Of a stretch of 64,000 nt of DNA, positions 12,316 to 63,500 are shown piece by piece. The notes under the pieces are model-generated. The model was not told the origin of the DNA. It did no database searches and worked only from the letters and a program-made list of their open reading frames with translations. Position numbers and translations under genes: made by a program. The stretch is from Polytrichum commune (taxonomy: Eukaryota > Streptophyta > Polytrichopsida > Polytrichales > Polytrichaceae), in contig OX485806.1 of assembly GCA_950295325.1 (NCBI GenBank), positions 7,128,001 to 7,192,000 of the forward strand, read 5' to 3'. Numbering within the stretch: position 1 is the first letter of the stretch; every line of letters begins with the position of its first letter.

Positions 12316-13587
12316 GGGGAGATTTTTGGGCATAATCGGTTGAGATCCTAGTGTTTGCATGCCCAACCGGTTACATGTTGTTGACATTCTCCGGTTTTCC
12401 TTTATTGGTTATGTCTGTAGGACAAAGACTATGCATCAACTTCTTTGTTTCGCGAGCAAATTTCCTAACCACTTCATGTTCACACTTGGACGTTACTTGT
12501 TCCTGCTATTTTTGGTCCAATTGATTTAATGCGGATGTTAATTATAGTTTATATATATGTAATTTCTTTCAAAAATGTATAGGTATAGTAAATAGCCATG
12601 GATAGAGCTATATATATTATTATAGTTGTAGTCTTTCATAATAAAGGACAGAGCCTCAGGGTTCTAGTGTTTTCTTGTTACATTGGGGTATATTCTATAC
12701 ATTCCTCTAAAATGATCGGTAATTTTCATGCAGTCTTATAATTCAACCGGTTATTTGTCAAGCTCAACCGGTTCATTTGTAACTAACTGCCGGTTCTCCC
12801 CGATCGTTGAACGGGGAGAATTGGCTGCTAAGGGTTGGTTTACACCATGGAGAATGAAGTTGGACCATGGAAGATGGCCTTTTGCCATGGTCCGACTTGA
12901 TGGGCCAACTTCCATGGTCTGATTTCTTAAAACCGTCAATTTACAAAGCCTTCGGGCCCCTCACTGGGTGTAAACCGGATGTGGACCAAGAGGAATGACC
13001 GTGCACCAAAAAGCGAATGTGATGATTTTCATAAATATATGTCCCAAATGGGCGATTTAAAAAAACTTCAAGTTTGACCATTCTTTTGTCTTCTTTTGTC
13101 TTCATCTTCACTTCCACACAAAAAATAAGTCATTAACATATTATTATAACGATATTTCTCTGCCATGGACCCTTGCCTTTTTCTATCAGAGCATCTCTTT
13201 TGCCTCTCCCGCCACAAAACCCGTTGGACCATGTCAATGGATAATGTAGGCCTTAAAATATGTCTTTTGAGGACCTTGAACTCCATGGTCACTTTGACAT
13301 TTGTTTCCTTAGTGTAAATCGAAGTGGTCCCAGGATGAGTTCAACAACCAATCACAAATTTTACAGAGCCTTGGGACGACTTCATGGTCCATGGTATAAA
13401 TAACCCTAAGTTAACTTACAGATGAGCCGGTTGAAGTTTGAGGCTTCAAGGTAATTACCTATCATTGTAGGGGATTCTATAGAATAAACCTCCATTTTAC
13501 CAAGAAAAAATGAAAGGTGTCAACATGTAACCATTTGGTCTTGGAAACACTGGGATCTCGTCCAATTATGTCCAAAAATCTCCCTGA
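12316..13587. repeat. Head-to-head pair of ACCGGTT-repeat units, disrupted by insertions
   Basis: A forward unit starts at GGGGAGATTTTTGGGCATAA (12,316), continues through CCAACCGGTTACATG, is interrupted at about 12,419-12,660 by unrelated sequence, and resumes at GGTATATTCTATACATTCC to end at GGTTCTCCCCG (~12,800). An inverted unit starts at CGGGGAGAATTGG (~12,811), is split by the MITE at 12,832-13,406, and ends at AAAAATCTCCCTGA (~13,587). The single inverted unit at 35,853 gives the uninterrupted order. Isolated units begin and end with CGGGGAGA / TCTCCCCG, so each looks like a short TIR element. Confidence 0.65.
12832..13406. mobile_element. Tourist-like (PIF/Harbinger) MITE, 575 bp, TAA target-site duplication
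   Basis: The left end is GGGTTGGTTTACACCATGG. The right end, read inverted, is GGGTTATTTATACCATGGAC. The element is flanked by TAA on both sides (12,829-12,831 and 13,407-13,409). A G-rich start, ~19-bp TIRs and TAA duplications fit PIF/Harbinger MITEs. There is no coding capacity. It sits inside the inverted ACCGGTT unit, so it is younger than that unit. A second, 5'-truncated copy lies at ~46,500-47,020 just upstream of ICMT. Confidence 0.75.
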
Positions 13588-23459: not shown

Positions 23460-23998
23460 TACACCGTTCATGGTATTTAGTGTCATGTACAATATTTGCG
23501 AAGGGCCTAAACTAGATGCATGGAGGTTTCAAAGTGTCTCGGCTACTGATTGATGATACGATTCCGTTTGTCAACATAAATAACCTCTTTGAGTGAAAAA
23601 TATCTTCATCATGACATTTAGAGTAGCACGTTGGGATACGTTAGATGATAGTCTTGTGTTTTAGTATGCAAGGGAAGATATTGTTTAGCTTACCAACGGC
23701 AAGTGTCATGCGTTTGCATTTTAGTATGCAAGAGGAAGATATTCTTGAGCATACTAATGGCAAGTGTCATTTGTGTACACTTTAGTCAACTTGTAGATCA
23801 TTGTGGAACATAGACATCCACCTCATCGCACTATTGAACATACTCACGTTAAGATACTATCAAATGCACTTGAACGCCAAGTGTCATGAGACGACACTTA
23901 TGGTGAAGTTGTTAATCATCAATGTAACCTAACATACACTTCAAAATAGGGTAAGTGACACTATTTCACATGTGACACTAAATACCATAAACGGTGTA
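23460..23998. mobile_element. Non-autonomous TIR element, ~539 bp
   Basis: The left end ACACCGTTCATGGTATTTAG is matched by the inverted right end ACACCGTTTATGGTATTTAG, and the complementarity extends to about 28 bp. Possible 3-bp duplication ACT on each side. The interior holds a tandem ~70-bp repeat beginning TTTTAGTATGCAAG (near 23,660 and 23,720). No coding capacity; superfamily unclear. Confidence 0.6.
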
Positions 23999-41176: not shown

Positions 41177-42339
41177 ATCATAACCCTTGACCCTGCCACG
41201 CTGCAAACTACAAATGCATATGATGTTGCCACAGATTATGAATCTGCTGCACCTGTTGCGGGTGGGCGGGAGGATCCATTGCAGCAGCATGCACTGGAGT
41301 TCACCATCAACCTGCACACAGAGGGCCGCGGGAAATTCAAGTCCATTAGACTTTCTTCGAGGTACACACTTCCCAACCATTCCTTTGTTATCCCCTCCTG
41401 CACTATATCAGCCATCTGTTACAAGATCACTATTGAATTTGTGTTGCTGCATGAGATGCAATTAATCCCTTTCAGGACACTTGGGACAAATTGACAAACT
41501 ATTGTAATTGTGAATTCGATTCCATTGATGTAGTGCAGGCATGCCACTGTTGGAAATACATGAATCTCTTTGGTCAGTTTTGACAACTTTGTCATTTTTA
41601 TGGACAGTGGGGGTGATGTCTAGTAGATGCGTGTAATTTCTCTCCATTAGCTGTCCCCACCATTCTCTTTGGGTTTGTCCCTCCTGGATTTCATCAGCAA
41701 TCCTTTTTGATTGCTTCTCTTGAGCACAATTGAAATTCTGTTGCTGCATGAGATGCAATTTATCCCTTTCAGCGGATTCCAGGAAAATTGACAAACTCTT
41801 GAAATTGTGAATTTGATTCCATTGTACAGTGCATGCACTTGCCACTGATATAAATTCATGTTTTTATTTGGTTAGCCTACCGTTTTATGCACAATGGAGG
41901 TGATATCTGGTAAAAATGTAGAAATTCTCTCTAGTTACCATGGCAATAGAAGGTTCCTTGCAGACATTGATGATGAGGTTTATGTCTACCCTTAGAAAAA
42001 TATAGTTCTTTCTACTCTTTTCATAATGATTCCAGAATCGCCTCCTTGCCTATATTGAGTGCAAATAGGAACATACCCTAACCAGAGGTTGTAGTCTACA
42101 ATGCACATATGTCGATTCTGGTGCTGTCTGTTCGTCTACAAGTCTTTCCTGTAGTTACAATTCCAGACATCCAAGTTTTGATTGTGGGAGAGATATGCAA
42201 CAGGTACTGTGCTGCGATATTAACAGAACTGCATAAGTTGAGATCCCATAGTAGTTCGGGGGTAGCCCATTCCCAGCCAGAGGCTGCAGACTTCCCTGTT
42301 CTCCACCTGCGACGACGGGCATCGGACTGGTCACCCTTT
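41177..42339 (+). pseudogene. GRV2-like: Two-exon fragment of a GRV2/RME-8 (DnaJ endosomal protein) gene
   Basis: The exon at 41177-41361 reads IITLDPATLQTTNAYDV, VATDYESAAPVAGG and EGRGKFKSIRLSSR. The exon at 42204-42339 reads YCAAILTELHKLR and FPVLHLRRRASDWSPF. Phases match, acceptors end CAG and donors are GTACAC and GTATGA. These are N-terminal segments of GRV2/KAM2 (DNAJC13/RME-8 in animals), a protein of about 2,500 residues for endosomal sorting. Neither the preceding nor the following exons could be found nearby, and a Helitron helicase piece ends about 20 bp upstream on the other strand, so this is most simply a transposon-captured fragment. Both exons are undamaged, so capture may be recent or the fragment may be spliced in a chimeric transcript. 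Confidence 0.7.
41385..41940 (+). repeat. Tandem ~285-bp duplication in the intron of the GRV2 fragment
   Basis: TTGCTGCATGAGATGCAATT, ATCCCTTTCAG and AATTGACAAACT..GAAATTGTGAATTTGATTCC occur near 41,446-41,520 and again near 41,735-41,820, with flanking sequence repeated in register. Confidence 0.7.
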
Positions 42340-42754
42340 GTATGATTTCTTTCCTCCTTGCACCTCTTGATTTTCTAGATGCTGTTGTTCTCCTGTAGCT
42401 TATGAAAATCACATAATTCTGCAATGTGCTGGTCACAATTGTGACCAGGGGAATGATGATTGAATCTTTTCCTTTAAGTACTAGTGATGGACTAAATAGG
42501 TCACAGATTAGCCTGTTCTTAACTTATATCATGTTCTTTCATCTGAAGTTATTGTCATAGAGGTCATAAGTTGTAATGTCACCTTTGGAAAACACATAGA
42601 GTTTGAGTGATGCATTGACTTGGTATTCCTACATACCCAATATTTGTTACATTATACCTGTGGGCAGATCCGTACGGAGATCTAGGTTCTCTTTATGTTC
42701 ATTACAGTGGACCTGTGGCGCTTCTCATGTGGACATCTAAATTATTTTGGTGTA

Positions 42755-43200
42755 AGAACGTGACATCTAAGGCACCATAGTAACCAGAAGTAAAGACATC
42801 ATAGGCGGATAGTATTGAATTTCCGTTTTTACTTCACTTACTACAACCAACGATGCCCCCCTTAACTTGTAAGCAACTGTCTACCTCCAAATTGGGACTC
42901 TCGTCCCGCTCTCACATCGATACTAATCAGAATGCCCCTCTCCCTCTATACCAACAACCATCGACGATCAGAAAAAAATTTACATAATTCGATCATCCTC
43001 CACGTCACCACTAAACCTAATCTCAAGAACAAAGATTGACACAGAACCACTTACAGATGATTTCACAAAAGGACGTGACATCGAAGGCACCATAGCAACC
43101 AGAAGTAAGACATCACAGCCAGACAGCATTGAATTCCCGGATTTTACTTCACTCCTACAAGAGTAGAATTACAACTATGGATGCCCCCTTACCTTCTAAA
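42755..43200 (+). repeat. Tandem ~318-bp duplication
   Basis: GTGACATCTAAGGCACCATAG..ATTGAATTTCCG..TTTTACTTCAC at ~42,757-42,860 is repeated as GTGACATCGAAGGCACCATAG..ATTGAATTCCCG at ~43,076-43,155. Neither copy is coding. Confidence 0.65.
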
Positions 43201-44159
43201 AAAATGTCTTGACTTCAAAGTCCAGAATTTAGTTCCAAGCACCAGAGCAATCACCCTAATCATCAGGAGACATATGTATACAATCAATCAATATCCCCTT
43301 GCATTGGGAACGGAAAATCAAATCCACAACACTAACCTTCCAAGTCCGACCTTGTTGCAGCGCGGAAGCACCGACCGACCAAACAGGATCGCCTCCCCCA
43401 CGCATGGAAAGAACTTTAAAATCCAAACTCTCCAAGATTCCGTCAATTCACGCCTCCAATTGGTGATGTCTCTCCACCTCCGACGATCTGCCACCTCCAA
43501 AATCCGCAACCATCCAGTCCCGATCCGATCCACAACCCGATACAACTTAACCTTACACAAACTAAGCCCTTACACCATGTCAAATTCGCATAACCTAACC
43601 ATTTCTCGTAGGAGAAAAACGGAGGTTTTTGAGAGGCTTTTCAGCTCACACAGCTAGTTTGATCTCCGAAGTGGAAGTGCTAGTTTGATCTCCGAAGAAG
43701 AAGAGAGGAGGAAGGCCTTAACCCTAACCCTAACCTCAACCTCTCAGGTGACGTGGCCGCCTGAGAGGGCGTCATTTCGGGAAAGGGTTATAGGCCCTCC
43801 TCCTCGACCACCAATCATGCAACGTGTACATCTACTCCTATAGACGTATATAAATATCTCTCCTTCTTGCAATATGTCCCAACTGTGGTTCAATAACCTG
43901 CAGAGCCTTCCTCACTGCTAGTTCAAGTATTGTTGGAAAACACCTCTATCATGGCATTGATATTAACTCCTTCACATATTTTTTTATTGAAGGCTCACGA
44001 CTTTGTAAAGCAAGTGAACATCTACATCCATTTTTTGATGATTTAGTAATTATATATAGTTGTTAGTTTCTTATCCTTACATGAAATTGTTATCATTTTT
44101 CCTAATGTTATCTTGTTGTTTGCTAGTGTAGTTTGATGATGTAAGTACAACATAAATTT
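43201..44159. other. Unassigned tract, GC-richer at 43,300-43,800
   Basis: A 158-codon plus frame and an overlapping 80-codon minus frame occur at 43,181-43,657; neither has a recognised motif. On the minus strand the 43,800-43,600 stretch, with AGGGTTAGGGTTAAGG, resembles a plant 5' UTR/promoter, so this may be a captured promoter-exon piece. This is a weak suggestion. Confidence 0.35.
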
Positions 44160-46499: not shown

Positions 46500-47020
46500 A
46501 AGAAACCGACAATCCAATTCCATGCTCCGATTTCTTAAAAAGTCAATTTACAAAGCCTTCAGGCCCCTCACTAGATGTCAACCGAATGTGGACCAAGAGG
46601 AATGACCATGCACCAAAAAATGAATGTGCCGATTTTTTTTAATATATGCCCAAAAAGGGCAGTTTTGAGGGAAAAAAATTCAAGTTTGATCATTTTCTTG
46701 TCTTCTCTTGTCTTCATCTTCTCTTCCCCAAAAGTAATTTCATAAAAAATATAAATATTATAACAACGTTTCTCTGCCATGGGCCCCTGCCTTTTTCTAC
46801 GAGAGCAACTCTTTTGCCTCTCTCACTGCAAAACCTGTTAGACCATGTCAGTGGATAATGTAAGCCTTAAAATATGTCTTTTAAAGACCCTGAACTTCAT
46901 GATCACTATGACATTTGTTCCTTGGTGTAAACCGAAGTGGTCCCAAGTTGAGTTCAACAGCCAATCACAGATTTTACATGGGCTTGGGACGACTTCATGG
47001 TCCATGGTGTAAACAGCCCC
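46500..47020. mobile_element. 5'-truncated copy of the Tourist-like MITE, adjacent to ICMT
   Basis: It is colinear with 12,910-13,406 over ~490 bp (GTCAATTTACAAAGCCTTC, GTGGACCAAGAGGAATGACC, TTTCTCTGCCATGG, AATGTAAGCCTTAAAATATG). The right TIR is intact (inverted, GGGGCTGTTTACACCATGGA, ending 47,020). The left TIR is absent. The end lies 131 bp before the ICMT ATG. Confidence 0.75.
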
Positions 47021-47151: not shown

Positions 47152-50100
47152 ATGGCCGAACCGATCCCCAAAACTCTGCCTTCCTCAACAGGATTCCACT
47201 CTCATTTGGCCTCAACAACTGCACGATTGGCTGAATTTCTAAAGAATGTGAGAGGTTTAGCCTCATACGAGAGCGCAGGGATGGGGTTCACCCCGTGGGA
47301 GCAGCTCTGCTGGATGCTGGGATCGGTGCTCTTCTTCCACACATCCGAATTCCTTCTTGCTTTTGCGTACCACGGTCGGCGTGTTACTGTTGGCTGTAAG
47401 ATCCCTGGCCTTGGTGTTAGGGTTTAGGGTTTAGGGTTTTGAGGTGTGTCGCGGTTGTGGAATGTAATTTTCGGGTTTTGCAGCTTTTCTTTACAAACTT
47501 TCCGTAATTGGTAGCACTGGGAAGCCCAATTGGTGGAACAGTCCCTGGCTTTGCTCAAATTCCCACCACTTTCGGCTAGAGCACATTGTAGTTCTTGGGA
47601 TTAGGGTGCTGAGGTGTGTCTTGGTTGTGGAATTAATTGAATGCGTGGATTCTGCAGTGTTTCTCATAATTGTTCCTTATTTTGTAGTACGGGGATGCCA
47701 AATTGATGAAACAATCTCTGGATTTGCTCAAATTATCTACCACTTTCGGCTAAAGCACATTGTAGTTCTGGAAATTAGGATTTTGAGGCGTGCCGTGGTT
47801 GTAGACTGATTGTATGGAATTGGCAGATTCTTCAACGTTTCTTATTAGTGTTCCTTATTTCGTGGCACTGGAATCCCGAATTGGTGAATCCCTCCCTGGC
47901 TCTGCTCAAAGTATCTACCGCTCTCTGCTAGAGCACATTGTAGCCTGGGGTTTAGGGTTTTGAGGTGTGTCGTAGTTGTGGACTGATTGAAGTTGCAGTT
48001 TCTGCAGCGATTCTTATAAGTGTTCCTTATCTGTGGTAGGACTGAGATGCTCATTGGTGGAATACTCTATAGCTTTGCTTAAATTTTTTACCACATTTGA
48101 GCTAGAGCACATTGTAGTTCTTTGGGTTTAAGGTTTCAAGACAAGTCATGATTTTAGACGGATTGAATTGGAGGATTTTTGCAGCTTTTTTTTTTGTAAG
48201 TGTTCCTTATTCGATAGCACTGGGATGCCGAATTGGTGGAACACTTCCTGGCTTTGCTTAAAGCATCTACTATTTTGGCTAGAGCACATTGGAGTTCTTG
48301 GGTTTAGGAATTTGAAGTGTGTTGTGGTTTAAGACTGATAGAGTTTGTGGATCCTGCAGCGTTTCTTATAAGTGTTCCTTATCTGGTAGCACTGGGATGT
48401 GCATTGGTGGAACATGCACTTGAAAGCTGGTTTGTGCCTCGGCTGAAAGATCAGACTTATATAAGCTACATAGGGTTGGGTATGATAATCTTGGGTGAAG
48501 TGACACGCAAACTTGCTGTTGTGACTGCAAGTCGGAATTTCACACATGACATTAAAGTAGATTGGCGTTCAGATCACCAGCTTGTCACCCATGGCATCTA
48601 CAGGTGTGTCTCTGTAATCTCCTAGCCCTTCCTCATTATGTTCTGGTCCTCTTCGTTTCTATGTGGTGAAGCTTGTAAGAGCAAGCCATGGTTTGGTGTA
48701 TCTTCAAATTCTCCTGCATCCATCTACATTATGCTTTGCAGATTCTCCCACTGGTTGTCATATCCATATCTATATTGGGGGAAATTGTTTTCTGATTACA
48801 CTTTGTTGTGCAAAAAGACATGGTAAAGAGCTCATCAATTTAAGTATCCTAGACTAATTTAGGTTAATTGATCACCTTTGGGTGGAAATCCGAGGGGAAA
48901 TATGGTCATTGATTGCTCATCTCATTATGTTGTTGATTGTTGCGGTTGCAAGAAATGGGCACAATTTGTTGGGAAAAGTGGATGCCTGCATCCGCTTTCC
49001 ACATTCAGATGCAAATATGGTGATGGGTGGGAGCTATCTCAATGTATATTCCAACATAATATTCATTTTTAATCAATTCTAAATGTTTACGGTTACTGAT
49101 ACGGCAACCAGTGGGCCTGCTCTAAAAGGGAACCACAAGATTGGAAAGTAGGATGGAAACTGGTGAGGTTTAGAAAAGGGTTAAAACTTTGGGTTCAGCA
49201 CATGGGTTCAGAACTATTGTATTATGATTCTCATTGACATCTGCTTTCTCCCCATGAGAAGCCTTTAAATTCACATATCATAATTTCACATTGATTTAAT
49301 CACAAGAAACTGCAATACTGAATCAATGCCTACCTGACATAGGGTTGCATGTGAGGCAATCTTTTGTTTCTCTAATTTTTAGTTGCAAGACCTAAAAGGT
49401 TGATATATGAATCAGCAGCCAGATGCTGATTAACCACTGAAAATATGTTAAACTTAATAGGGTATGTATCCACATAAAACTCAACCTCAGAAGGTGGGTC
49501 ACTTGCATTTTGAGATGCCTCCATTCACTGATCATATGATACCTTGGGTGGCTTGGGATCATTGGTTTTGACTTATCGAAGAAGTATACGTAACTCTAAT
49601 CTACCTATTCTTTCTTCACTTTTCTCTGTGTTCAATTCCTCAAGATCAAAGGCCACTTCATGTCTAGGATGATCACTTCATTTTGACAGTTTCAACTTTG
49701 AACGCCCTTCTGTATTCAGGAACATGCCCATTGGGTGTATGTTAGCAAAAATGGATTTTAATTCCTTCAAGTGCTTGAATGGCAGTTATTTCCGCCACCC
49801 CAGCTATTTTGGCTTCTTTATCTGGTCAATTGGAACACAGGTACTATTAATCAATCCAGTGTGCACAGTTGGTTATACAGTTGTCACCTGGCGGTTTTTC
49901 AGGGATCGCATCCCGTATCCTTTAAAAAGGTTTTATTTCTGGCTTTTACTAATAACTTTTGGTTAAGGAGCACATGTGAAAATTTATACGGTTTTTTCTT
50001 GGGGAAGGTATCTTAAGAAGTGTGCAAAGGCATAGCTGATTTCTGTCCATTTAGGTTCATCGTGAAAATCCAGGTCTTAGCTTCAAATTTCTCATCAGAG

Positions 50101-50224
50101 ATGCACAAGTTTACCCTTGATTTGTGAGAGTAGATATGAGGAATACTTCCTTAAACGATTTTTTGAAGAAGAGTACGAGGAGTATGCAAATAGAGTTCCA
50201 TCAGGGATACCCTTCATCAAATAA
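47152..50224 (+). CDS. ICMT: Isoprenylcysteine carboxyl methyltransferase, four exons
   Basis: Exons: 47152-47395, 48360-48603, 49786-49914 and 50134-50224; 235 residues, phases consistent. The enzyme methylates the C-terminal prenylcysteine of CaaX proteins (ROP/Ras GTPases and others) in the ER membrane. Family hallmarks: FTPWEQLCWMLGSVLFFHTSE near the start, FLISVPYLVALGC and YIGLGMIILGEVTRKLA (membrane segments), HQLVTHGIY, FRHPSYFGFFIWSIGTQ (SAM-binding), NPVCTVGY, WRFFRDRIPYEEYF and YANRVPSGIPFIK at the C-terminus, where the usual catalytic Arg/Glu segment lies. Family length is about 195-285. The Met at 47281 would give 192 residues, closer to Arabidopsis; the 43-residue extension from 47152 is uncertain. 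Intron 1 carries the pseudo-exon array, and a MITE end lies 131 bp upstream. Confidence 0.92.
47405..48359 (+). repeat. Five decayed tandem copies of the intron-1/exon-2 junction in ICMT
   Basis: Units of ~172-179 bp end at acceptor-like TGCAG sites at 47,483, 47,657, 48,007 and 48,184 (mutated to CAAC at ~47,835). Each is followed by ~55 bp matching the start of true exon 2 (for example TTCTTATAAGTGTTCCTTAT). Units also carry TTTAGGGTTTTGAGGTGTGT and GGCTAGAGCACATTGTAG. The authentic acceptor is CAG at 48,357-48,359. The copy after 48,007 meets a stop within about 11 codons; the copy after 47,657 stays open to 47,809. The first unit contains three TTTAGGG telomere-type repeats (47,410-47,440). 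Confidence 0.9.
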
Positions 50225-50843
50225 TGGGGACTGTTGTGGGTAATCCTCTATCAAGTACCCTTCCATTCACAACTTGACAAGGCCTGGAAATCCTGGCACC
50301 TCTATCTCTCTCATTCTTTAGTAACTTGTAATTCACTGCTGAGAGCTATTGTTACTGTGTTGATATTTCTTTGATGAAAGTTGGGGAGGTAATTCAATGT
50401 AGAGGTGCTTGAAAGAAAGGATTGCCTAGGTGGGTTAACTTGTATATTCCACTCAGCTAGTTAATTTGGAAAAGCCTAGGTTAGTTGCATTCTATGAAAG
50501 AGTTGGCCCTATTTGGTTATCTTTCAGAGGGCAATGTACAGAAGGCTACAGAGAAATTGATCATACCAAGACCAATTCTTTCCATGTGTACTCAAGCATG
50601 TATTACTGTTGTAAAGGAAAACATCCAGAATACTAACTGATTGATTGTAAGGTACTTTTGTAGCCTTACAAAAAATTGCAATTGGGACTCTGAACAAGTA
50701 TGTACTTCTATTAGTGTAATGTTTTATGTAGTGTGGATTTTCGTGCCCTTTTGATACCTAACATGAAATGTGCATTTCTATTGCCGTCAGAAACACCTTT
50801 CACATGTCTTTAAAGTTTAGATGTTTTAAAGTCCAGAGTCTAT
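50225..50843. other. Convergent intergenic/3' UTR space between ICMT and the SMP/C2 gene
   Basis: No open frame above background. It presumably contains both 3' UTRs; no polyadenylation signal is distinctive enough to call. Confidence 0.5.
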
Positions 50844-53800
50844 TTATTGGACAGAATTGCATTCACTGGGGGGAGTATTTATGGGATCCTCCGAGCATAA
50901 ACTAGTGTGCCTGTCATTCCATTCAAGCCGTAAATACAATCTGCCACAAGGTACACCCACAAGCTTGAAAATGCCATCGAAGGAATGCTCTTGCAATACT
51001 CGGGTCAAGGTGGTGGCAGTTGAGCCCAGGAAGTCCTGCAGGGTGCCAAATAGTGTTGTCAGCTGTTCTGTTCTTTATAAGCATATGGTGTCCAATTCAA
51101 TTTTGGTGCTTGTTCAAAATCCCCTTAACTTGGATTTTTCAATTGTATCCATGATTAGAGTGTTTATTAGCAATGATATCTGCATAACTATATCAACTCC
51201 TCTGGTCTCTTGATAATCTGTGAGAAATGAAGATCTATGATATATATGGACTTTATTTTGAAACGAGCATGGAACATCAGCCCGAAACACTTTGGAAGCT
51301 GACTATCTAGTTTTCAGTGACCATAGAGGTTGGTTGCTACTGACGGAGATTTGGGTATGATAAAGAACTTGCCAATACCATCTGTACTTATTCGATTCTT
51401 CACAGGCTTTTGTAAAGAGGCATCATTTAGCATGACTTTTCACTCACAAATGCCAGACCTCACTGAAAATGCTCAGCAATTGTGTACTTCGTCGAAGAGA
51501 AAAACACTATCATGCACACAACCTTGCAGGTAAAGTAAGGAGTTGTTCCTAAAGAATACAAGTTTGCACTTCATATAACACAAGGGTGTCACAACAGAGA
51601 TTTCACCCTGCCAAAAGTGTCATGGTCCCAAACTTTTGCCATAAGCATATCTTGGCTGGCATCTTCCACAACAAATTGGAACCTCTCCTGCCAAACTGGG
51701 TTCAAATTTCTATGAACAACCTGCACAGTACACAAATTTCAAGGATAAATTAGAACGACTAGCCCACATTCAAATTCAATTGTTTTTGTGAAGGGTGATA
51801 TTGTGTTGACACCGTTCCTGTTAGATGTCGCATCTAATCAAATCAGCATCAACCGCAGGTACATTGTGTATGTACTGTGTACTTGCTATTGGTAGTATGT
51901 TTTAATGTTGTACTAATATCAACACTATTTTTATGATACCAATGGGTAATGGTAGAGTCATTTACAAACCTCTATTTTTTTAAATCATTAGGGTACTGGT
52001 ATCTACACACATGAAGTATCACACATGGGTAGGGTGTTATAACATGTAAACTAATGAAATAACATCATCAACAATCATAGAGCATATGTGTACATTACAT
52101 GAAGAAAAGCCAATGATTGATGAGAATTTTCCTGGAGATCTTTTCTTATTGAAGGAGCCATACTTATTCATAGTCCAATATTGGTATGTACAACTTTTTG
52201 TGAGAATATTAGTTGTTTAAGTGCATGCAAGATAGTGTCAACAAACCATGGTCTTTTTCTTGGATCGCTTGTGTTTTCTCATGTTTAGTACCACATATGG
52301 GTCACTCTTGCCATTAAAATCAGTGGGTAGGAGGTCCTCAGCTCGCATCACTACCACTGTCAAGACTCCACGAATCATTTCCCACATGCGTCCCTTCCGA
52401 GAAAATCTTGCAAAGAACCGCCAATCAGTCGTACAGCTATTGTCCATGTTATGAACATTATGAGCTTTCAACATAGAACAACATAAACTTTTAGTTCTCT
52501 TTACTTAAAACTAAAAAATAAAAATAAAAATAAAACTTGTTCTATGGGTGGTGAACTCTAGCTAGGGACAATCTCAAACCTTGTAAGACCATATTTTAAA
52601 GTTGACTACAACTCCCAATGCAATGACTTAAGGGGTTTAAGTTACACACAACCACCATTTTGGTGATTGATGGTTCTAGTTTACTTTTCTTTGGTTCTAT
52701 TTTTGAGAAATAGGTGTGTTGATGACAACCACAACCACAACCACAACTACTCACTTGCTCAACTACGATACAAGATACAAGCTATAGTTGCGAGTGGTTA
52801 GTGATGGCCTTCAAATAGTGGTGAACTAGTTGTGTGAAATACCTCGCACTTAAGGCCTTGCTTCTGGCCTCACGGCACTCTGCACTGATAGAAGGTCCAC
52901 TTGCTAATGCTAATTGCATTAAGACTTCTCGCTCATCATAACTTCGATAAAGGAACTCAATATTCACCTGTCAAAGGATAGCAAAGTGCAGCAATTAGCT
53001 TGACTAAAAGAGATTATTAAACTTAGCAATTTGCATCATGTCAAGTTAGGTCAATTGACTTCATGGACAAGTTAGTGGGTCTTAAATGTGTACTTTTAAT
53101 CATCCAATTTGTGCATGTAGCCTTTTTCCTCATAATTTTCGGAGCCCAAAATGAATATCTTACTCGTTTTCAAAGTGAAAATTCTATCTCTCATTAAATG
53201 ATTATATAGGTTCCCTCAATTATGTTGACTATTGACCTTAGAATGGTTAACAAATCTTGAGCATGTAGTCCAATCCCTTTTTAAACATGTCTTATCTTGT
53301 GTCCATTCTTAGATCCACAATAACTACACCACACAAATATGTTTTGCTGTACTTCTGAGCATCTACCACTTTAGATCTACAACAAAATAGTAAATGTAAA
53401 CCAGTGCAAACAAAATTTTTTATCAAGAAATTGTCTGGTATTAAGCCTCATCACACTAGTGAAGAAATCTCCACTAGTCAGGTGCACATGGCAACTAACC
53501 TGACCTCTATACTTGGTGTCATTAATAGTGCTGTGACATTCCATATTTTTGAAAACTCGGAGCCATCGTTCTGTGATATGTTCTTCCACAAGGGCCTGCA
53601 AATTACCACCTTGTAGGAATCACTGAACCATATATGCTGATGATCACTGGTACACATGGAATTTGTCCAACTTAATCTTAAAATAATTGGGGGTGTGTTT
53701 ATACCAAATATGTGACAATTTGTATGTTCCCCACAACAAATAATGAAATAATATTTATTTGGTCTATGATATAAATACGTACTTAGCACGACCTATCAAA

Positions 53801-56800
53801 AGAGGAAGTGAAAATAAAGTCAAAACTGTGATTAGAATTACATGGTGTGTATTTGAGTCTAGGTCATGTATACGAGCTCAAATCTCCCTATAATTCAATT
53901 TACATATATGTGTGTTATTGTAAATGGCATAGGTTTAGATAGCTTCACTTTGGCACTCTTAGCTAAAATATGAAGAAGTAAGCTTAAACTTCTCCCGATA
54001 ACACCTTGAAGCCCAAAATGGGGCTGTTGGAGCATTAAGGGTCAACCAACTGAGAACACTCACTTGCAAGTAAAATTGAGCATATCCCAGCACTTGAAAT
54101 TCCTGAGAAGCCCCTTCATCTAGCAGAACAATTACTACCTTCTGATCTTCCAAGTCCTCAACCTCGAGCTCAAAAAACTCGTTCCAAATAGGATTGCCCT
54201 CATGCCTCTGGATCAAAGAGTTGTATCCAAATCATTGCAAGCGAACTAATTTTATACCACAGATTAAAACATCATATAATGAGATCATACGAGCCTAACT
54301 TTCTGTATAAATAATCCCTATGAGTATGGAATTCAACTAATGTGGAAAAACTTTTGATGTAAGGTTAGGGCGTTACATGTTCCTTACTATGGTCGTGCTC
54401 TTCCTTATCTGCCCCGGGGTAGCATGGATGTAAAGCATTGCAAAAGGGTCAGGAGTTTTTTCACTGTGTCTTAGGTCTCTTGCCTGGACCAACTTGATGT
54501 CTAAAATCCCTAGTGGTGCTCCTGTCTTCACACCTGGTAACGTATTGAAGATTTGTCCATTTCTTCGTGGACACATGTGGCGTTGCAATCTGAACGAAGG
54601 ACAATAACAAGATGACTCAATCAAATATAAATTGCAAAGCAGGATTTCATGGCCAAGATGCAGGAGGATAGAAATGCAAATGCAAAAATATTTTACCTTG
54701 TGTAATCTCCGTCTGCAGGGATTGGAATTACAGGAATACAGACTCGCATAGGCCAACACAACGAGTCTATTACGGCTGTGCTGATCATTTCCTGCAATCT
54801 CGCATATCTAAGATTCAGTGGTAGCAGAGCAGAGCTTGGGTTTTGAGTAAATGTCAGTTACTATGAACTAGGTAGTATGGGTCTACTACAGCCGATGACA
54901 TGGCAACACATGTCCATTACTGGACGAAGTGGTCAGGCCATCAGCAGGGCTATCAAATATGGGTGATGATGTGCCTCCTGTATCCAATCAGGAATAGACA
55001 AGTCAGAAAAATCGTTTGACATGACCACTACGACATATTCATCTGCTCTACCATTAGGAGGAGCTGAGGAGCTTGATATCTCTCCTCCGCAGCTGGATGA
55101 CATCTTACAAGTCCAGAATATAAGTTTTGCCTTTGCAATGTTATACAGGAGATGGAGTAATTTTGTTTATAAGTGGAACTTACATGGAGCTTTTCACTCA
55201 ACCCGGGAACAGTTGCAGTGTCACCACCAACAAATTTCAACTTGAACTCGAACTTTTTCTGGTCCAAAAACACACAACCAACCCTTGGTCCTTTAATATT
55301 TAACCGACTTAAATCACTTAAATCACGGCTATGTCCCAAGACCAGCTCCAGACGTCTTGGTTAGATCCATGTAGATACGGCCATAGGTGGATAAACAAAA
55401 GTACAACTTGATTTCAGACTACAAGTCAGGAATATCTTAATGTAAATTTTCTTTTGCATTGATGGTGGACAAAACAGATACTTCTATACATTAAGAACTT
55501 GTGGTCCCAATTTGGAACATGCTGCACTAAATGCACCACCGGAAGTATTTTGGGTTAAATGTTGAATGTTAAACTTGCCTTTTTTCTAATTGAGTAAGTG
55601 ATAGCTCCAAATCCAGGTAGCTCTTCCACCAAAGGCTTGAATATGACCCGGAACACTGCTTTTAAGTGTATATTCTGGACCTGGAACACACTGACAAGAT
55701 GTAATTGGGAATTTGGCCCTGAAGCTTGGCAGTCAACAAAGTAATCCGTCACAATTATAACCCCAAGTAACCTGCATTTGTTATATCTTCTGCCCACCAG
55801 AGACCTGTCTGCAGCTCCAAGAATCAAATGAGATTTGACCTAGCTCTGTTTTCTTTGTTTTCTTTGGTTCTAGTACAAGTGGAGTACCTGAACAGGAAAA
55901 GAAACACCCATAATTGTTCCCACTGTCAAGATGCAGCTTGCATTGCCGTACCACCTCGTATCCACATCCATAGAAATTTCTTTTTCAACCAACTCCAGCA
56001 TCCGAAGCCCTGGGAAATGTGACAGAAAATGAGAACAACTTCTGATTGTTATATATTGCCTCTTCCTATCAGTCTCTCCTGTAATTGACTAAAACGTGCA
56101 AAGAGCCTAGCCTGGAAATATTCTTCAGTGTGATTCCAGTAGTCCAAGTGCAAGTGAGGCTTAGAACAAATTTTAGGGTTTATGGTTCAATATGTATCAC
56201 CCTCTTTGAATGTGTTACCTAATCTGTGGCCTGTTCAATATGCATAACTCTATTTGAATGTGTGGATAAAAATTCTATTTAACATTGAACTGACAGTGAA
56301 GATGAAAACAAACCGTCAAATTGAGGAGCAACGGAGCCAAGTGTGAGTTCCTGAAAACTGACAGATGTCGCCAACGTGGGCTTGTAAAAGTCCAAAAATG
56401 GCTCCCAAGAGTCCATGAGCATCCTGGAGTAAGCCTGCCAAAATACATTCCAGCACAAAATATCAAGACCACCCACTAAAACCTAGTTTCTTGCAATATT
56501 TTTGCATACAGTGAACGTCCAGAAAATAATTCCTTGCTCAAGAGTATATCCTTAAAAAAACTTGAAAGATGATCATAGTGATGCTGGCTCCTTGACACAT
56601 TGGAACATTTTGAATTTTCTACTTTTCACTCACGATATTGCTCACATACATCCCATCGGTGACTGTAAAGTTTACATGCAAGGGGAATAGGTGACTTACC
56701 TCATTGAAATATGGCCACACCTTCTTCAATTGATGATTCAGCCAATCAACCTGCCCAAAACCAATCGAAAACCTCATTTCAGCTGCGCGAGGTTGAAACC

Positions 56801-58289
56801 TCGTCATTTCTTCAGGTACTACTTTCATCAGGCTTAATGCAAAAACAAAACTTGCTAAAGAGTGTCGTCAATCAATCACTTCGCTCACCTAGTTGGGAGA
56901 GTGTGCTTTTCAACTGTAATAAAATTTGAAAGAGCTTAGTTGATGCATCAATTAGGTCGAGGGTAAATCCCAACCAAAGAGACACATCAATGCAAAAATG
57001 ATTATCAATCTATACACACCTAAGGTCCTTAACCAACATGCATGTATGAATGTGTTACACTACAACTTTTGATCACACCAATGGTGTTTTTAACAATGTG
57101 TGTCAAACGAATCCCGCAAGCACTGTGAAAATTTTCAGCAAACTTGACAGAAATCTATGAAGGAGCAGTTTTGAGCCATGCTTTACTAACCTTTTCAAGA
57201 TCACTGGACACAACCCACCGTGGCAGCATTGCCTTGGAGAAGATGGATTGAATGTCCTCTTTCATTAAATCCGAGAGTGTGAGGATGAAGCCAGCCTGTC
57301 AACCAAAGCTAAAGTACACCGTGAGCATTCTTTGTTTTTGGGTTCAATGTGCCTAACATTGGGTGATACGTTTCAAGACAGAGAAACGGCTTATCAGTTT
57401 GGTAGTTTTCATACTTAGAGAGTCACAATGCGTATGTATGAATGAATTGGGATCCTGTTTGTGTCTGGGTTCAATATGCCCAACATTGGATGATAACATT
57501 AAAGACCGACAAAGTGGATATCAGTTTGGTAGGTTTCATACCTAGAGTCATAATATCATTGTAGAATAAATTGGGATCCTCTTTGTTTAAGGTTCAATGT
57601 GACCAACATTGGGTGATAAGATTGACGGCAGACAAACTCATTTTCGTACTTAGAGTCACAACACTACCCCTTGAAGCCAACACCCAGTGAAGAATATTAC
57701 TGCAAGAGGTTTCTATCACAACCTCCCAACTCACTTCTTTCGATCAATCATTTCGGAATGTATGAATGAACTGGGTTTTCTGCACAAGCTACTTGTTTAT
57801 ATGAGCTTCGGTGACTTATAACAAAGCCTAAGACTATAAGTATGGTGAAAAGCAAACAGTATCATCCTCCCGGAACAGAAATCCGAACATCATGTTATAG
57901 CACACAAGATCAACTCCCTTTTCCATACTGTGGAATGAATTTGGCAACATGTGGCATACCTTCAACCGCCGAGCTCTCGATCGGGTTTTCTGGCAATGGC
58001 TGAATGCAACCATTAACCCCATGCCGGCAATAAACCCAGGAACAATTCCAAACAACAGAGCAGCGGATGTGCTCCCAATTAAGAAAGCCGGCACCGTCCC
58101 CACAACAAAGATGTAAACCGCCTCGCGTCCGAAGTGCTCTCCGGGAGTCGAATGAACGTACAATGTTGTAAGGAGATCTTCCCAAATTTTTCGAATGCGT
58201 GCAGGCAATGAAACCGAGACAAAGCGGCTCGTCAACCATGTCACCAAGTTCCCGAAGAAGTTATGCTCCTCTTCCCCCGCATCTGCCAT
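50844..58289 (-). CDS. NTMC2-type plant SMP plus two-C2-domain membrane-tethering protein, 15 exons
   Basis: Exons, from the 5' end (minus strand): 58289-57960, 57295-57191, 56750-56700, 56434-56314, 56009-55888, 55680-55579, 55258-55184, 54791-54697, 54589-54388, 54207-54064, 53595-53500, 52967-52843, 52406-52247, 51720-51607, 51035-50844; 677 residues with consistent phases. Residues ~48-95 are hydrophobic (VYIFVVGTVPAFLIG), the membrane anchor. An SMP lipid-transfer domain follows (VDWLNHQLKKVWPYFNE, ELTLGSVAPQFDG, FRVIFKPLVEELPGFGA, FVGGDTATVPGLSE). C2A (~359-450) has KTPDPFAML but lacks most calcium-binding Asps. C2B (~535-655) has LLPTDFNGKSDPYVVL and VWDHDTFGRDF, a full Asp set. The family (plant synaptotagmins/tricalbins) tethers membranes at contact sites. 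The intron after exon 6 starts GCAAGT, so it is a GC-AG intron. Confidence 0.9.
53090..53345 (+). repeat. R1 dispersed repeat inside an SMP/C2 gene intron
   Basis: ATCCAATTTGTGCATGTAGCC, GAATATCTTACTCG, CAAAGTGAAAATTC, TATATAGGTTCCCTCAATTA, CAATCCCTTTTTAAACATG and CCATTCTTAGATCCACAA lie in the order seen at 13,780. It occupies the intron between exons 11 and 12. Confidence 0.6.
57340..57665 (-). repeat. Tandem ~125-bp triplication in SMP/C2 intron 1
   Basis: On the plus strand GTTCAATGTGCCTAACATTGG starts at ~57,342 and recurs at ~57,470 and ~57,592, each followed by TCAGTTTGGTAG-type and CATAC.TAGAGTCA blocks and GAATAAATTGGGATCC. Confidence 0.75.
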
Positions 58290-59235
58290 GGCTTGCTTTC
58301 AAAAGTCTCAAACAGAGAGATACGATGATAGTGCCAGTGGAGAAAAGATTTCTTATCCTGCACCTTCATCTCCAATACAAACCCCTTCCTGCCACTTCAT
58401 CAATTGCTTGTTGCCGTTCAAGATATTTTCCAGCAACATGCATCACTTATGCATTAGCAAGGTAGAGACGACACCCGCATCTGCCATGGCTTGATTTCCA
58501 AAGTCCCAAACAGAAGAGGTGTGATACTGCGAGTCAGCAGATGCCTTAACCTGCACCTTAAGAAAGAAGCCTTCCTTCCAATTCATCAATCGCTTGTTGC
58601 TGTTCAAGAATTTTGCCAGCAATATGCATCACTTGCCATAGCTCTTCTCCTACATTCTGCCATAGCTTGCTTGATTATTGCAATGTGAGTTTGAGCAAGT
58701 GTCTTGACCTGCACCTTCACATCCAATACAGGCATCTTCCTTCCACTTCATCAACTGCTTGTTGTTTTCTGTTCAAGAATTTTACCAGCAATATGCATCA
58801 CTTGCCATAGCTCTTCTTATGCATTTACAAAGTAGAGGCGACATCCTCATCTGCCATGGGTTGCTTTCCAAAGTCGCAAACAGAGACATGATAGTGCAAG
58901 CAGATGTCTAAACCTGCACCTTCATCTCCAATGCAGACACTTTCCTTCCACTTCATGTATTGCTTAGTGCTGTTCAAGAAAATTTTCAGCAACACGCACC
59001 GCCTCTTCTTCGTCTGCATATACACGGTAGAGGCGACATCCGCATCTACCATAGCTTGCTTTCCAAAGCCCCAAAGCAGAGACGTAGGATAGTGCGAGTT
59101 GGGCAGGTGTCTTAACCTAAACCTTCATCGCCAATACAAATACCTTTCTTCTACTTCATCAATTACTTATTGCTGTTCAAGAATTTTACCAGCAATATGC
59201 ATCACCTGCCATCGCTCTTCTTATGCATTTACAAA
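58270..59235 (-). repeat. Five tandem ~176-198-bp units containing copies of the SMP/C2 start codon
   Basis: The true start ATGGCAGATGCGG (minus, 58289) is repeated upstream as ATG/ATGG-type starts at about 58,487, 58,663, 58,857 and 59,052. Each sits in the context GGAAAGCAAGCC / GGCAGATG. Units also share CTTCCTTCCACTTCATCAAT, TTGTTGCTGTTCAAGAA and CAGCAATATGCATCACTTGCC. Some copies give short open frames (for example 59,052 to 58,825), so decoy starts exist upstream of the authentic one. Confidence 0.85.
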
Positions 59236-59764
59236 GTTAGGGGCTACATTGATTAGGGTTAGGACAACGTTGATGTGATGTGTGGGAGTATATGATTCTT
59301 CCAAGTCAGTTGATCATTGATTATTGATGATCGATGCATCCACAGTGACAAAATGAATTGTTGTCTCGGCCGCTAAATATCAATCTCGGACCTAGAGCCC
59401 AGAACCCCAAAACGAGAATGTAACACGGATGATCTGCTGTGAAATATGTCGTAGACATGTAGCTCTCAGTGCGTGTGAAATCTGACCTGAGATCGAATTG
59501 ACGCAGGTTGGTCCCTAGTTTGCAGAGGAGAAACATCAATATCTGTTATTCGGACCACTGTGTATCAAGGCACATGGACCAATTTGATGGCCCAGTGGAT
59601 CATAATCTACAGTAGCTTACACGGAAATGTAGTAACTTAAAGTAGCTGTGTTGCGCCATTTGTATATTTCCCAATGTATTTACTTCACCGTTGGAGTCTT
59701 TTCTGCTGTTAGTCCTTCATTCACAAACCTAGATCAATTACTAAAATACAACCCTCAGATGCCG
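59236..59764. other. Divergent intergenic space between SMP/C2 and PLD-like genes
   Basis: No open frame above background. It separates the array around the SMP/C2 start from the duplicated PLD-like promoter, and probably holds distal promoter sequence of both. Confidence 0.4.
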
Positions 59765-60565
59765 CAGCGGACCTCCTTTGAAGTCTTGTGCTCCTTATAT
59801 TCTGTTTTATCCTTCTCTTTGTATGGATGGTCATGACATAACTCTTGACACTTGGATGGTAATTTATAGCATAATTTAGAATATGTCTTCTTAAATACAA
59901 AATAAGTCTTGTATAATCTTCTTACTCCAAAGCATCATCACCTCGCCGAACTTCAATAACCTGCAGAGCACAAGTGTCATCGTATAATCACCTCGTGACA
60001 GATTCAACATCGCATTTATCCCTTTGAAAAACAATGCACATTTGCTGAGTGGATTGGCACTAGTATGCAAGCGTGAGGGTTAAGTTTATCTCAATTCGGA
60101 ATTCCACCAGATTCCTTGCCGAAATAAGTTTCGTAAGAATTTGAAGGAGCTCGGATCGGGCTGCTCCATATGGAGTGTGAAGTCCTGTGCACTTTATGAT
60201 GTTCTGTTTTATGCTTCTCTTTGTCTGGATCTGTTGACATAACCCTTGTTGACACTTGGATGGTAAGTACTAAGCATATCTTAGAATATGACTTCTTAAG
60301 TACAGAATATGTCTTGCATATTCTACCGTCTCCAAAGGATCACCTCACAGAATTTCGATAACCTGCGGAGCGCCTCGTGACAGGTTCTTGCATTGAATTT
60401 ATCCCCTCAAAGAAACTATTCACATTTGCTAAGTGGATTGGTACTATTTAGTATGCAAGCGTGAGGGTTCAGGTTTGCTCAAATCGGACTTCCACCAAAT
60501 TTCATGCCGAAATAGGTTTCTAAGAAATTTGAGGAGCTCGGATTGGACTACACCCCAAGATGGAG
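59765..60565 (+). repeat. Tandem ~390-bp duplication of the PLD-like promoter/5' UTR including the start codon
   Basis: The blocks GACACTTGGATGGTAA, TAGAATATG.CTTCTTAA, GCAAGCGTGAGGGTT, CTCAA.TCGGA.TTCCACCA, TTGCCGAAATA and GGAGCTCGGAT occur in unit A (to ~60,172) and unit B (to ~60,563). Unit A ends in CATATGGAGTGTGAAGTCC, a copy of the authentic AAGATGGAGTGTGTCAAG at 60,560. Confidence 0.85.
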
Positions 60566-63500
60566 TGTGTCAAGAGCTCCTACACGTTACTGTTATTATC
60601 ACTTCTACTCGTAGCAGCAAAAGCCCACGCAAAACATCAAATTGATGGCGGAGGGAAGAAATGCAAAGCATGGTTAGTGCAGTCAGTTCCCACAGACATG
60701 CCGGAGCTTGCCCAGGTGCCAGGGGTTCTGCGAACTGGAGATGTGCTGAAATGGCTGGCAGGCAATGCCACAGAAAAAGGATCTTTGGACATCACCGCTC
60801 AGTACTGGGAGTTTTTGGAAGAGTCGAGCAATCCGAAGTCTGGTGACTATGGGTTTTCCAAGCAGCAGATGGAGCAGTTTGGAGCGGCAGCAGGTAAGGC
60901 TGTGCACGATTCGTTGCTACTAGCTGCAGACAGGGGCATACCTATCCGGTAACTCCCCGGCTACATAACCTTGAATTTGGGCAACCTTAATATCATCCTC
61001 ATTTGACATTGTTTCTCTCTATGTCTCTGTCTATGTAGAAGAGTCACTAATGTAGGGTTTTGCAGCATTCAGGATTCTACTCTTCTTTTTTATGCTGAAT
61101 CGGCTGCCATAAGCTACATAATCTTGAAATTGAGCAGCCTCAAGATCCTCACTTGACAATGTCTTCTCTCTCTCTGTCTATGTAGAAAAGTCATTGATGT
61201 ACAATTTTGCAGGATACAGGATTCTACCCCATTTTTTATACTGGATCAGATGCCATAAGCTACATAATTTCGAAATTGGGCAGCCTCAGTATCCTCATTA
61301 AGTAGACAACGTTGTCTCTGTCTATGGACAAAATTTATTGATGTAGAATTTTGCAGCATACAGGATTCTACCCCATTTTTGACCCTGAATCGGCTACCAT
61401 AAGGTACATAATGTTGAAATTGGGCAGCCTCAGCATCCTCGATCATAAGACAACGTTTTCTCTCTGTATGTAGAGTCATTAATATTGTATCACACACTTG
61501 CGGTGACCTAGTGTGAAGAACAAGAGTAATAGTTGGAATAGGGTTATCAGAAGCCCTTCCAGCTGGAACTAAAGTTTCTTTGAAAGAGAAGTTCTGAGTG
61601 TGTAGGATGTTGCAGCATACAGGATTCTAGCCCAGTTTTGATCCTGCCACAAGCTACATAACCTTGAAATTGAGCATTCTCAGCATCCTCATTATACAAT
61701 GTTGTTCTGTCTATGTAGAGTGACTGATGTTGTAGCACATGCTTGGGGCAACTCAGTGTGACAAACATATGTGATAGTTGGAATTGGGTCAACAGAAGGT
61801 CTTCCAGCTAGAACTGAATTGAATTGAAATAGTAGTTTTGGGTGTGTAGGATATTGCAGCACACAGGATTCTACCCCAGTTTTGATGCTGAATCAGCTGC
61901 CATGGCCGCGGGCAGGGCAAATGTGCAGAACCGAACTTTGGTTCTGACAGATTGGTGGGGATCAGGAATTGTTCATGCGAAAGTGTGGATTGCTAACAAG
62001 AAAGATGCTTACCTTGGATCTGCAAACAACGACTGGAAGTCTCTTACACAGGTAAATATCATTGATACCACATTCCTAGGAGGGGAGCTTGTCAAAGCCC
62101 ACTTAGCAAAAACAAGGGTGTTGTCTAGAAATTGGCTAAAACTTTGGCCTTTGTATTTCCTACTTTAGGGTTTTGTCGTACCTCTCCTGGTTTTTTGGGT
62201 GTCGAAGTTGAGGTGTTAGTACACATGATGCTAAAAAACATCAATTTGCTTGAGACTTCTCATACCCTCTGGAGGTCAGTAACAGAAACTCAAGACAAGG
62301 TGGCTTCTTCCATGCAGATTGTTGTGGATGACCCCTAGTCATATGGCCTTGCCACCATTTGACTATTTCCTCAAATGTGAAATTTCTGTCTATTTCATTC
62401 CAGTTCTTGACTGCTGCTTTGTATTGAGTATGTAACTGTAAAAGCTTTGGATTAACTATCTCTCTAGTTTCGTATCTTATGGATTATTGGTTACCTTTAT
62501 CTGTCACAAGTGTTGTTTGAACATCGATTCTTACAAGGGCGTCCTTCTGGTAGACATATATCCATGTAGATAGTCTCACTCTGTTAGACACACGCTGCTG
62601 TAATTGCAGACAGGAGGAATAATCAAACATCTGTGAGATAAATAATGTGCAGGTGAAAGAACTTGGAGTCTATTTCACAGATTGTCCTGCGGTTGCAAAG
62701 CGGCTCGAAGGTTTCTTCAATAACTTCTGGACTCTCACCACTTTAAACGCATCTCTTTACACCAAGAAATTCTGGGATGAGCAGTGGCAGCTCAACCGCA
62801 CGGTCCCATGCTGGTCCCACTTCCTCGAAGCCGACATCCGCTGCAAGTAATATATTCAATTCTTCACTACGTCCACCATCTACTCATTACAGTAACGGCT
62901 TATTATAGCCATGCTACAATTACATCTGATTTAGTGTGGCAATAAATGTGGCCTGCCATTTCAATTAGAGTGGTCTTCGTGACTTGTCATGTGGCACCAA
63001 GTGTCATGTGACAGCCTCTCTAGTTGCCACCTGGTGATTGTAAGACAATTAATGTGGGTCGATGATGAATAGCGTGGGTCACACTAAATGAGATGTTTAG
63101 TGTAGTCGAGTCCCGGTCCACGAGTCTCACATGAAAATCTCTCTCCTCTGCAGATCACCACTCCCAGAGTCTACCAAGTCATCGAATGTGCAAGGGTATC
63201 CTTATTTGTCCAAACCCAATTTTTTCCAATTGGACTTAGAGACTCCTTCCTGGAATAGTGGAGGCACCAGAGGAGCTTCAGCAACTTACATATCTGTAGC
63301 TCCCCCAGAGGTAAGAGGTTCACTGCGATGGTGAGGAATGTAATGTGTTGTTTGATCCCAAACTTGTGTCAATTGACTTGGAAACCTTCCCAAAGTTGAA
63401 TTAAGAAAATAACCCAGTTTTTTCTTTTTCATTTGTCTCCACCAATTTATGTACCATCCCTCAGGATAGAATTTGTCATGCCCAGCTCATGTTGATGACA

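Follow-up and report, generated by a model that had tools for sequence, protein, structure and literature searches.

Eight imperfect tandem arrays in the 64-kb window (the whole stretch of DNA analysed here) are probably relics of a genome-wide process of small tandem duplication, followed by local growth and filtered by selection on genes. TRF, a repeat-family search and self-BLAST were concordant, and the same detector found no array in five dinucleotide shuffles of the window; the repeated blocks that the original prediction had described in three adjacent genes are therefore real. The flagged region of 14.5 kb holds five of the eight arrays.

In the ICMT gene, whose exon 2 carries a PF04140 domain match, six copies of ~176 bp in intron 1 (47427–48414, forward strand; TRF, repeat families and self-BLAST) start 31 bp inside the donor and include 55 bp of exon 2. 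Because the array reaches exon 2, its upstream copies contain decoy 3′ splice sites together with exon-2 heads, repeating the first 55 bp of the real exon (48360–48414, forward strand). By eye, weak similarity extends back to about position +5 of the intron. The triplication expected in SMP/C2 intron 1 at 57,340–57,665 was recovered at 57329–57637 (reverse strand; three copies of 127 bp; TRF, repeat families and self-BLAST), with a weak third copy trailing to ~57670; this array is entirely intronic and stops, as judged by eye, ~33 bp short of the exon 2 acceptor. The leader of the same gene contains five copies of ~200 bp (58276–59249, reverse strand; repeat families and self-BLAST) that finish 13–14 bp past the ATG (start codon 58289), except for the middle copy, which lacks that end. 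In the PLD-like gene, a promoter/leader duplication (59779–60569, forward strand; two copies of 399 bp; self-BLAST) includes the first 10 bp of the coding sequence (ATG at 60560), and the five copies in intron 1 (60960–61903, forward strand; ~145–250 bp; TRF, repeat families and self-BLAST) begin 11 bp inside the donor and take in the first 54 bp of exon 2, which starts at 61850. The last two of these measure ~250 bp, against ~145–153 bp for the others, owing to a common insert of ~100 bp.

The remaining three arrays comprise two copies each: a 297-bp unit in an apparent intron (41425–41875, forward strand; repeat families and self-BLAST), a 315-bp unit (42754–43209; repeat families and self-BLAST) and a 60-bp unit (23659–23786; TRF and self-BLAST). 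The first two correspond to the repeats of the same style reported earlier for the GRV2 fragment intron and for 42,755–43,200. For the array at 41425–41875, the donor was placed by eye at ~41363, and weak similarity, again by eye, reaches back to about +5. In the three window arrays aligned copy by copy, identity between copies was 64–83%. With exons drawn by eye, the claim that most units straddle an exon edge holds for four of the five flagged arrays, SMP/C2 intron 1 being the exception, and for four of the eight in the window.

Under a sampling design set down before the sequences were retrieved, we searched 28 gene loci (3 kb on each side of a conserved-domain match, 168 kb), picked from domain-match tables with close copies and several weak matches omitted, and ten 9-kb stretches (90 kb), located at chosen round-number positions rather than drawn at random. 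The ten stretches held 15 arrays (0.167 per kb), several of them without a recognised gene nearby, compared with 12 in the gene loci (0.071 per kb); 15 Ras-family loci, picked likewise but cut tightly round their coding exons, held one in 29.5 kb. Loci L039–L041 served in the paralogue comparison only and are excluded from these densities. Arrays were spread over the genome samples at roughly one per 6–15 kb and were confined neither to gene starts nor to a single class of gene, with dominant spacings of 60–405 bp among 36 arrays (at most 200 bp in 21, above 165 bp in 20). For the flagged 14.5 kb, the density of the ten stretches would give 2.4 arrays and that of the 28 gene loci 1.0, compared with the five observed (P 0.097 and P 0.004, respectively); both values refer to a region chosen because it looked rich, and the clustering noted earlier is modest. 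Since similar old duplications occur throughout the samples, they look like the outcome of a general process under a selective filter rather than of one directed to gene starts. Any argument from repeats at the starts of genes in this moss has to be weighed against the sampled background of one array per 6–15 kb.

No cross-matches were found among the eight window arrays at E 1e-3, in agreement with the earlier statement that unit sequences are unrelated between genes, and each of the four arrays searched over 407.8 Mb, with very common words skipped, matched only its own locus, where the copies lie adjacent and head to tail. The attribution to a mutational process instead of a mobile sequence therefore stands for these four locus-specific arrays. 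Although the window contains many dispersed repeats, insertion into these genes of a dispersed or mobile element with internal repeats is hardly credible given this locus specificity, and the pieces of host exon included in the units contradict such an origin. That the arrays are artefacts of assembly is likewise extremely improbable: they are known from assembled sequence and not from raw reads, but their copies differ from each other by 17–36%, and the array of sampled locus L006 is kept at a second locus, L041, that is 97.6% identical. An origin from lariats or RNA circles was dropped because the units contain exon sequence and lack the donor. The arrays might instead be functional, retained as repeated 5′ elements acting as enhancers or splicing regulators. 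They are located in leaders and first introns, a common setting for plant regulatory elements, which would fit this reading. It is nonetheless very unlikely, as the decoy parts of the ICMT and PLD-like arrays show little extra conservation, the paralogues of L002 and L024 lack the array, and several of those in the ten stretches have no recognised neighbouring gene.

The alternative that deserves most weight is that duplication is preferentially initiated at the 5′ ends of transcribed genes, for example by meiotic breaks near promoters or transcription-linked nicks. Plant meiotic breaks arise near promoters (PMC7237205, in excerpt), and in humans repair of meiotic breaks yields duplications and other structural variants, mostly below 2 kb (PMC7615360, in excerpt). 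The three array-bearing introns in the flagged genes all read as first introns. Over 19 first introns (18.1 kb in total) and 71 later introns (31.7 kb in total), placed with approximate edges in gene structures drawn by eye from coding-score segments and domain matches, arrays occurred in five first introns vs one later intron (p 0.014–0.026 by length), a post hoc comparison of small numbers in which loci without a recognised start exon contributed no first intron, L006 (array 15 bp ahead of the first recognised exon) was excluded, and the single later-intron array, in L026, sits in an intron of uncertain rank. A 5′ bias within genes, as originally proposed, is thus retained at this strength, whereas a cause aimed at 5′ ends is unsupported. 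First introns did not clearly exceed the sampled background (P 0.10), and later introns were below it (P 0.03); first introns look like the background and later introns look depleted. The ten stretches are richer per kb than the gene loci, the L029 array straddles the 3′ end of its gene (stop codon), the arrays of L001 and L028 were placed by eye in 3′ flanks, and the 12 gene-locus arrays divide 8:4 between upstream and downstream of the conserved domains (p 0.39). The suggested relation to G4 potential also failed: a scan of 35 arrays from the window, the ten stretches and the 28 gene loci, with L043 left out, detected no simple-pattern G-quadruplex motif inside any of them. We therefore consider initiation directed to 5′ ends unlikely. 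Among introns of at least 400 bp, arrays were still found in five of 16 first vs one of 26 later introns (p 0.023, post hoc), which speaks against the preferred reading to the extent that some 5′ effect may exist.

Small tandem duplication filtered by selection, the reading we prefer, would proceed in two steps. Repair of nearby nicks or of a staggered break would copy 60–400 bp in tandem, and further copies could then be added through unequal exchange or slippage. Selection would demand that one intact exon remain; tolerated duplications would be those in non-coding DNA, or those including one exon edge with one intact copy left. Such a filter would leave exon stubs at both kinds of splice site, at start codons and at a stop codon. 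Exon context was read closely for seven of the 28 sample arrays (L002, L003, L006, L009, L025, the second array of L029 and the first of L036), the other 21 being placed from segment lists alone or left unplaced; an exon edge is straddled by five of the seven, another stops at an acceptor and the last lies just before an exon. The edges straddled are acceptors in ICMT and PLD-like intron 1, donors in L002, L003 and L025, start codons in SMP/C2, PLD-like and apparently L036, and a stop codon in L029, so that every kind of exon edge is represented. From the geometry, the ancestral intron is estimated at ~150 bp for a unit of 176 bp in ICMT and at ~185 bp for a unit of 192 bp in L025; with the intron shorter than the unit, a surviving duplication would have to include an exon stub. 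Some observations fit this scheme less well. The exon stubs of PLD-like and L025, two rough cases, are near the minimum allowed by unit length, unlike what evenly spread breakpoints would predict; that of ICMT is less so (55 bp vs ~24). Arrays were also few in the tightly cut Ras loci.

Vaughn and Bennetzen in 2014 and Schiml in 2016 reportedly ascribed small tandem duplications in plants to patch or nick repair. Minisatellites (VNTRs) resemble the arrays in their head-to-tail copies growing locally, but the classical minisatellite unit measures 10–100 bp, whereas the units here are longer, and their copies are strongly diverged without trace of recent homogenisation. Tandem duplication of a segment bearing AGGT is a known route to intron gain that likewise involves splice sites; the present arrays, in contrast, lengthen existing introns, and no new intron is shown. 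In mammalian cells, fill-in by CST and Pol alpha-primase at staggered breaks generates small tandem duplications (PMC8355091, in excerpt), a mechanism by which a break with overhangs gives rise to a tandem copy. The closest parallel is found in rice. According to the excerpted text of PMC7971508, small tandem duplications make up the most frequent class of insertion there, are enriched at 50–200 bp and are ascribed to the repair of neighbouring nicks, and exons lose structural mutations more quickly than introns do. In both cases the tandem copies are not mobile, occur often in the genome of a plant and are selected against in exons. The rice events, however, are recent, and the tandem share of insertions drops from 70% at 125 bp to 5% at 200 bp (same excerpt); our arrays are old, with multiple copies and lengths of 150–400 bp both frequent, and the 20 of 36 dominant spacings above 165 bp count against the preferred reading. 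The assertion that no described system predicts the clustering was too strong, since rice gains most insertions in this way (PMC7971508, in excerpt). Among the literature matches listed, none reported plant first-intron arrays of this type, which does not prove their absence. The arrays are best read as plant small tandem duplications by DNA-break or nick repair, filtered by selection.

In three older pairs of paralogues, with alignable exon pieces 78–94% identical, arrays were not common to both members, and in one pair each member had its own array without alignable similarity between them; in the 97.6% identical pair L006/L041 the array was kept (628 vs 626 bp). Divergence was below 0.10 in one of 36 arrays, 0.1–0.2 in 13 and 0.2–0.3 in 19 (1, 9 and 15 in the samples without the window), and the detector recovered planted copies in 40 of 40 trials per setting up to 10% divergence. 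At a constant formation rate, young arrays would never be rarer than old ones whatever the rate of loss; their scarcity here suggests that formation slowed. Divergence of dispersed repeat pairs also peaks at 0.2–0.3 (9 of 284 below 0.1), and low recent repeat formation may therefore be general, although pair divergences are not ages. Repeat hypermutation was rejected as a cause of the few young arrays (transition/transversion 1.09 in 36 arrays, 1.31 in dispersed pairs). It is possible, if rather doubtful, that tandem duplication in this plant lineage was episodic: some short introns would have been multiplied nearly in full, each together with a 10–55 bp exon stub, before a sharp slowdown, leaving many decoy splice sites and 30,000–70,000 diverged arrays, an order-of-magnitude extrapolation from two sample densities.

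The decoy exon heads are drifting in ICMT and PLD-like, and the real exon is shown to be the conserved copy. Among themselves the decoy heads vary to much the same degree as the intron parts (identity 0.741 vs 0.713 in ICMT and 0.818 vs 0.776 in PLD-like); the real exon matches the decoys at 0.811 and 0.845, respectively, above the values for the last intron part (0.697 and 0.753). Every listed decoy site in both genes reads into a stop codon ahead of exon 2. For splice-site choice in plants, introns that contain several near-identical decoy acceptors offer a natural test. If the proposed episode took place, it leaves many decoy splice sites for the splicing machinery to bypass, and should the lack of young arrays extend to the whole genome, it would be a rare record of a mutational process switched down.

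In the window (G000:C4:7128001-7192000, from an assembly of 407.8 Mb in 64 contigs), TRF and self-comparison identified eight imperfect tandem arrays, whose dominant spacings range from 60 to 399 bp, and the same detector found none in five trials with a shuffled window. Five of the eight lie in the flagged span, namely in ICMT intron 1 (47427-48414), SMP/C2 intron 1 (57329-57637), the SMP/C2 leader (58276-59249), the PLD-like promoter (59779-60569) and PLD-like intron 1 (60960-61903). Thus, the tandem arrays reported at these genes in the original prediction are confirmed. Pfam matches back the labels ICMT (PF04140, E 1.9e-7) and C2 (PF00168, E 6.2e-6). The PLD match in exon 2 of the PLD-like gene reached 19.8 bits, under the 27-bit cut-off, and Pfam matched neither the first exon of this gene nor that of the SMP/C2 gene; SMP and GRV2 are putative labels taken over from the original prediction. 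The ICMT array opens with two perfect units of the plant telomere type (TTTAGGG; 47423-47436), and one GGGTTTAGGG-like piece is retained by several of its later copies. A dispersed direct repeat of ~510 bp, 84% identical, occupies 12905-13406 and 46514-47019, with one member directly 5′ of the ICMT gene. Numerous short dispersed or inverted repeats at 9–36 kb and ~53 kb, mostly 67–88% alike, resemble small mobile-element families.

Such arrays did not prove peculiar to the three flagged genes. The same detector found 15 in ten 9-kb stretches (7.0% of 90 kb), which were taken at round-number positions and may mix genic with intergenic DNA, and 12 in 28 gene loci of the proteasome and E2 families (4.0% of 168 kb). 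Fifteen Ras-family loci, trimmed tightly round their coding exons, held one array in 29.5 kb. For the flagged 14.5 kb, with its five arrays, the ten stretches would predict 2.4 by their density (P 0.097) and the gene loci 1.0 (P 0.004), both values being qualified by the choice of this span for looking rich. Open frames built of short amino-acid motif repeats were seen at two sampled loci (L033:624-1262 and L038:2020-2343), and three ubiquitin-conjugating-enzyme genes whose exon match scores are the same or almost so lie inside 60 kb at C7:41.10-41.16 Mb.

The proposed 5′ preference stood in part. Of the introns placed, the 19 first ones (18.1 kb) held 5 arrays and the 71 later ones (31.7 kb) held 1 (p 0.026, or p 0.014 with extra copies left out of the target), and among introns of at least 400 bp they occurred in 5 of 16 first vs 1 of 26 later ones (p 0.023), in a test devised post hoc with small numbers and with exons drawn by eye. 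With the ten stretches as the reference, however, first introns showed no significant excess (P 0.10) and later introns a deficit (P 0.03), and the arrays divided 8:4 (p 0.39) between the upstream and downstream sides of the point where the conserved-domain match begins. Protection of later introns, rather than targeting of first introns, is the simplest reading. The 5′ mechanism as proposed was not supported. Donor and stop-codon edges are straddled too: the donor with 19 and 20 bp of exon in two proteasome genes (L002 and L003) and with 11 bp in an E2-like gene (L025), whose array fills the intron up to 4 bp short of the acceptor, and the stop codon in an exostosin-family gene (L029), with the second copy downstream. 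In an amino-acid permease gene (L036), the apparent start codon is straddled together with ~360 bp of coding sequence; a second, shorter minisatellite (~40 bp) is nested in the upstream gene-start copy (reverse strand, ~2240-2440).

ICMT intron 1 now measures ~964 bp, or ~150 bp once the extra copies are subtracted, and its unit of ~176 bp is longer than this ancestral intron; every unit contains the acceptor region and the initial 55 bp of exon 2. In PLD-like intron 1, the array begins 11 bp inside the donor and takes in 54 bp of exon 2, and units 5′ of coding starts overlap the coding sequence by 13–14 bp in SMP and by 10 bp in PLD. Copy identity was 64–83% in three aligned arrays. TGCAG is retained in four of the five ICMT decoys, i.e., upstream copies with a duplicated 3′ splice site and exon-2 head, and all ICMT and PLD decoy sites listed read into a stop before exon 2. 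Because divergence among the decoy exon heads is similar to that among the decoy intron parts, whereas the conserved copy is the real exon, the decoys look like relics.

Selection on surviving duplications could account for the straddled edges. A duplication within an exon would break the gene, and one within an intron would be harmless if it fits; where the unit exceeded the ancestral intron in length, a duplication could survive only by including one exon edge, leaving one complete copy. Stubs are therefore predicted at each kind of edge, matching the observation. The detail left over by this rule is the near-minimal stubs of PLD and L025, which are near the geometric minimum (ICMT is less near, 55 bp vs ~24). 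Selection against long decoy exons would yield such stubs, and breakpoints attracted to splice sites would do so equally; a strict minimal-stub rule is opposed by the long coding overlap of L036.

Across 36 arrays (window, L001-L038 and L043), divergence, taken from the best-scoring alignment of copies and thus an average over copies in multi-copy arrays, peaked at 0.2–0.3 and was below 0.10 in only one, although the detector recovers planted young copies of up to 10% divergence in 40 of 40 trials per setting; the youngest bin compared with the 0.1–0.2 bin gave p 0.0009 (p 0.011 without the window). As constant formation forbids fewer young than old arrays, array formation seems to have slowed. 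Alternatively, young copies may have been collapsed in assembly. Dispersed repeats in this genome are likewise mostly old. Two neighbouring proteasome-gene copies in opposite orientation (L006 and L041, C3:52.87-52.88 Mb), 97.6% identical over 3.2 kb, both retain their array at about equal length. In three older paralogue pairs the arrays are not common to both members, and in one of them (L012 and L039) each member has its own array without alignable similarity.

Excerpts from published work describe comparable events. In rice, most insertions are small tandem duplications, enriched at 50–200 bp and ascribed to adjacent-nick repair, and structural mutations are lost faster from exons than from introns (PMC7971508); a biochemical route leads from staggered breaks to duplication in mammalian cells (PMC8355091), and meiotic break repair in humans produces duplications and structural variants, mostly <2 kb (PMC7615360). 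By this comparison, the kind of event seen here falls within those published, and none of the literature matches listed gives an account of such array density and age. Background duplication combined with selection is probably the best explanation of the arrays. They represent a known kind of mutation, sampled locally, and their interest comes mainly from their abundance and the shortage of young ones.
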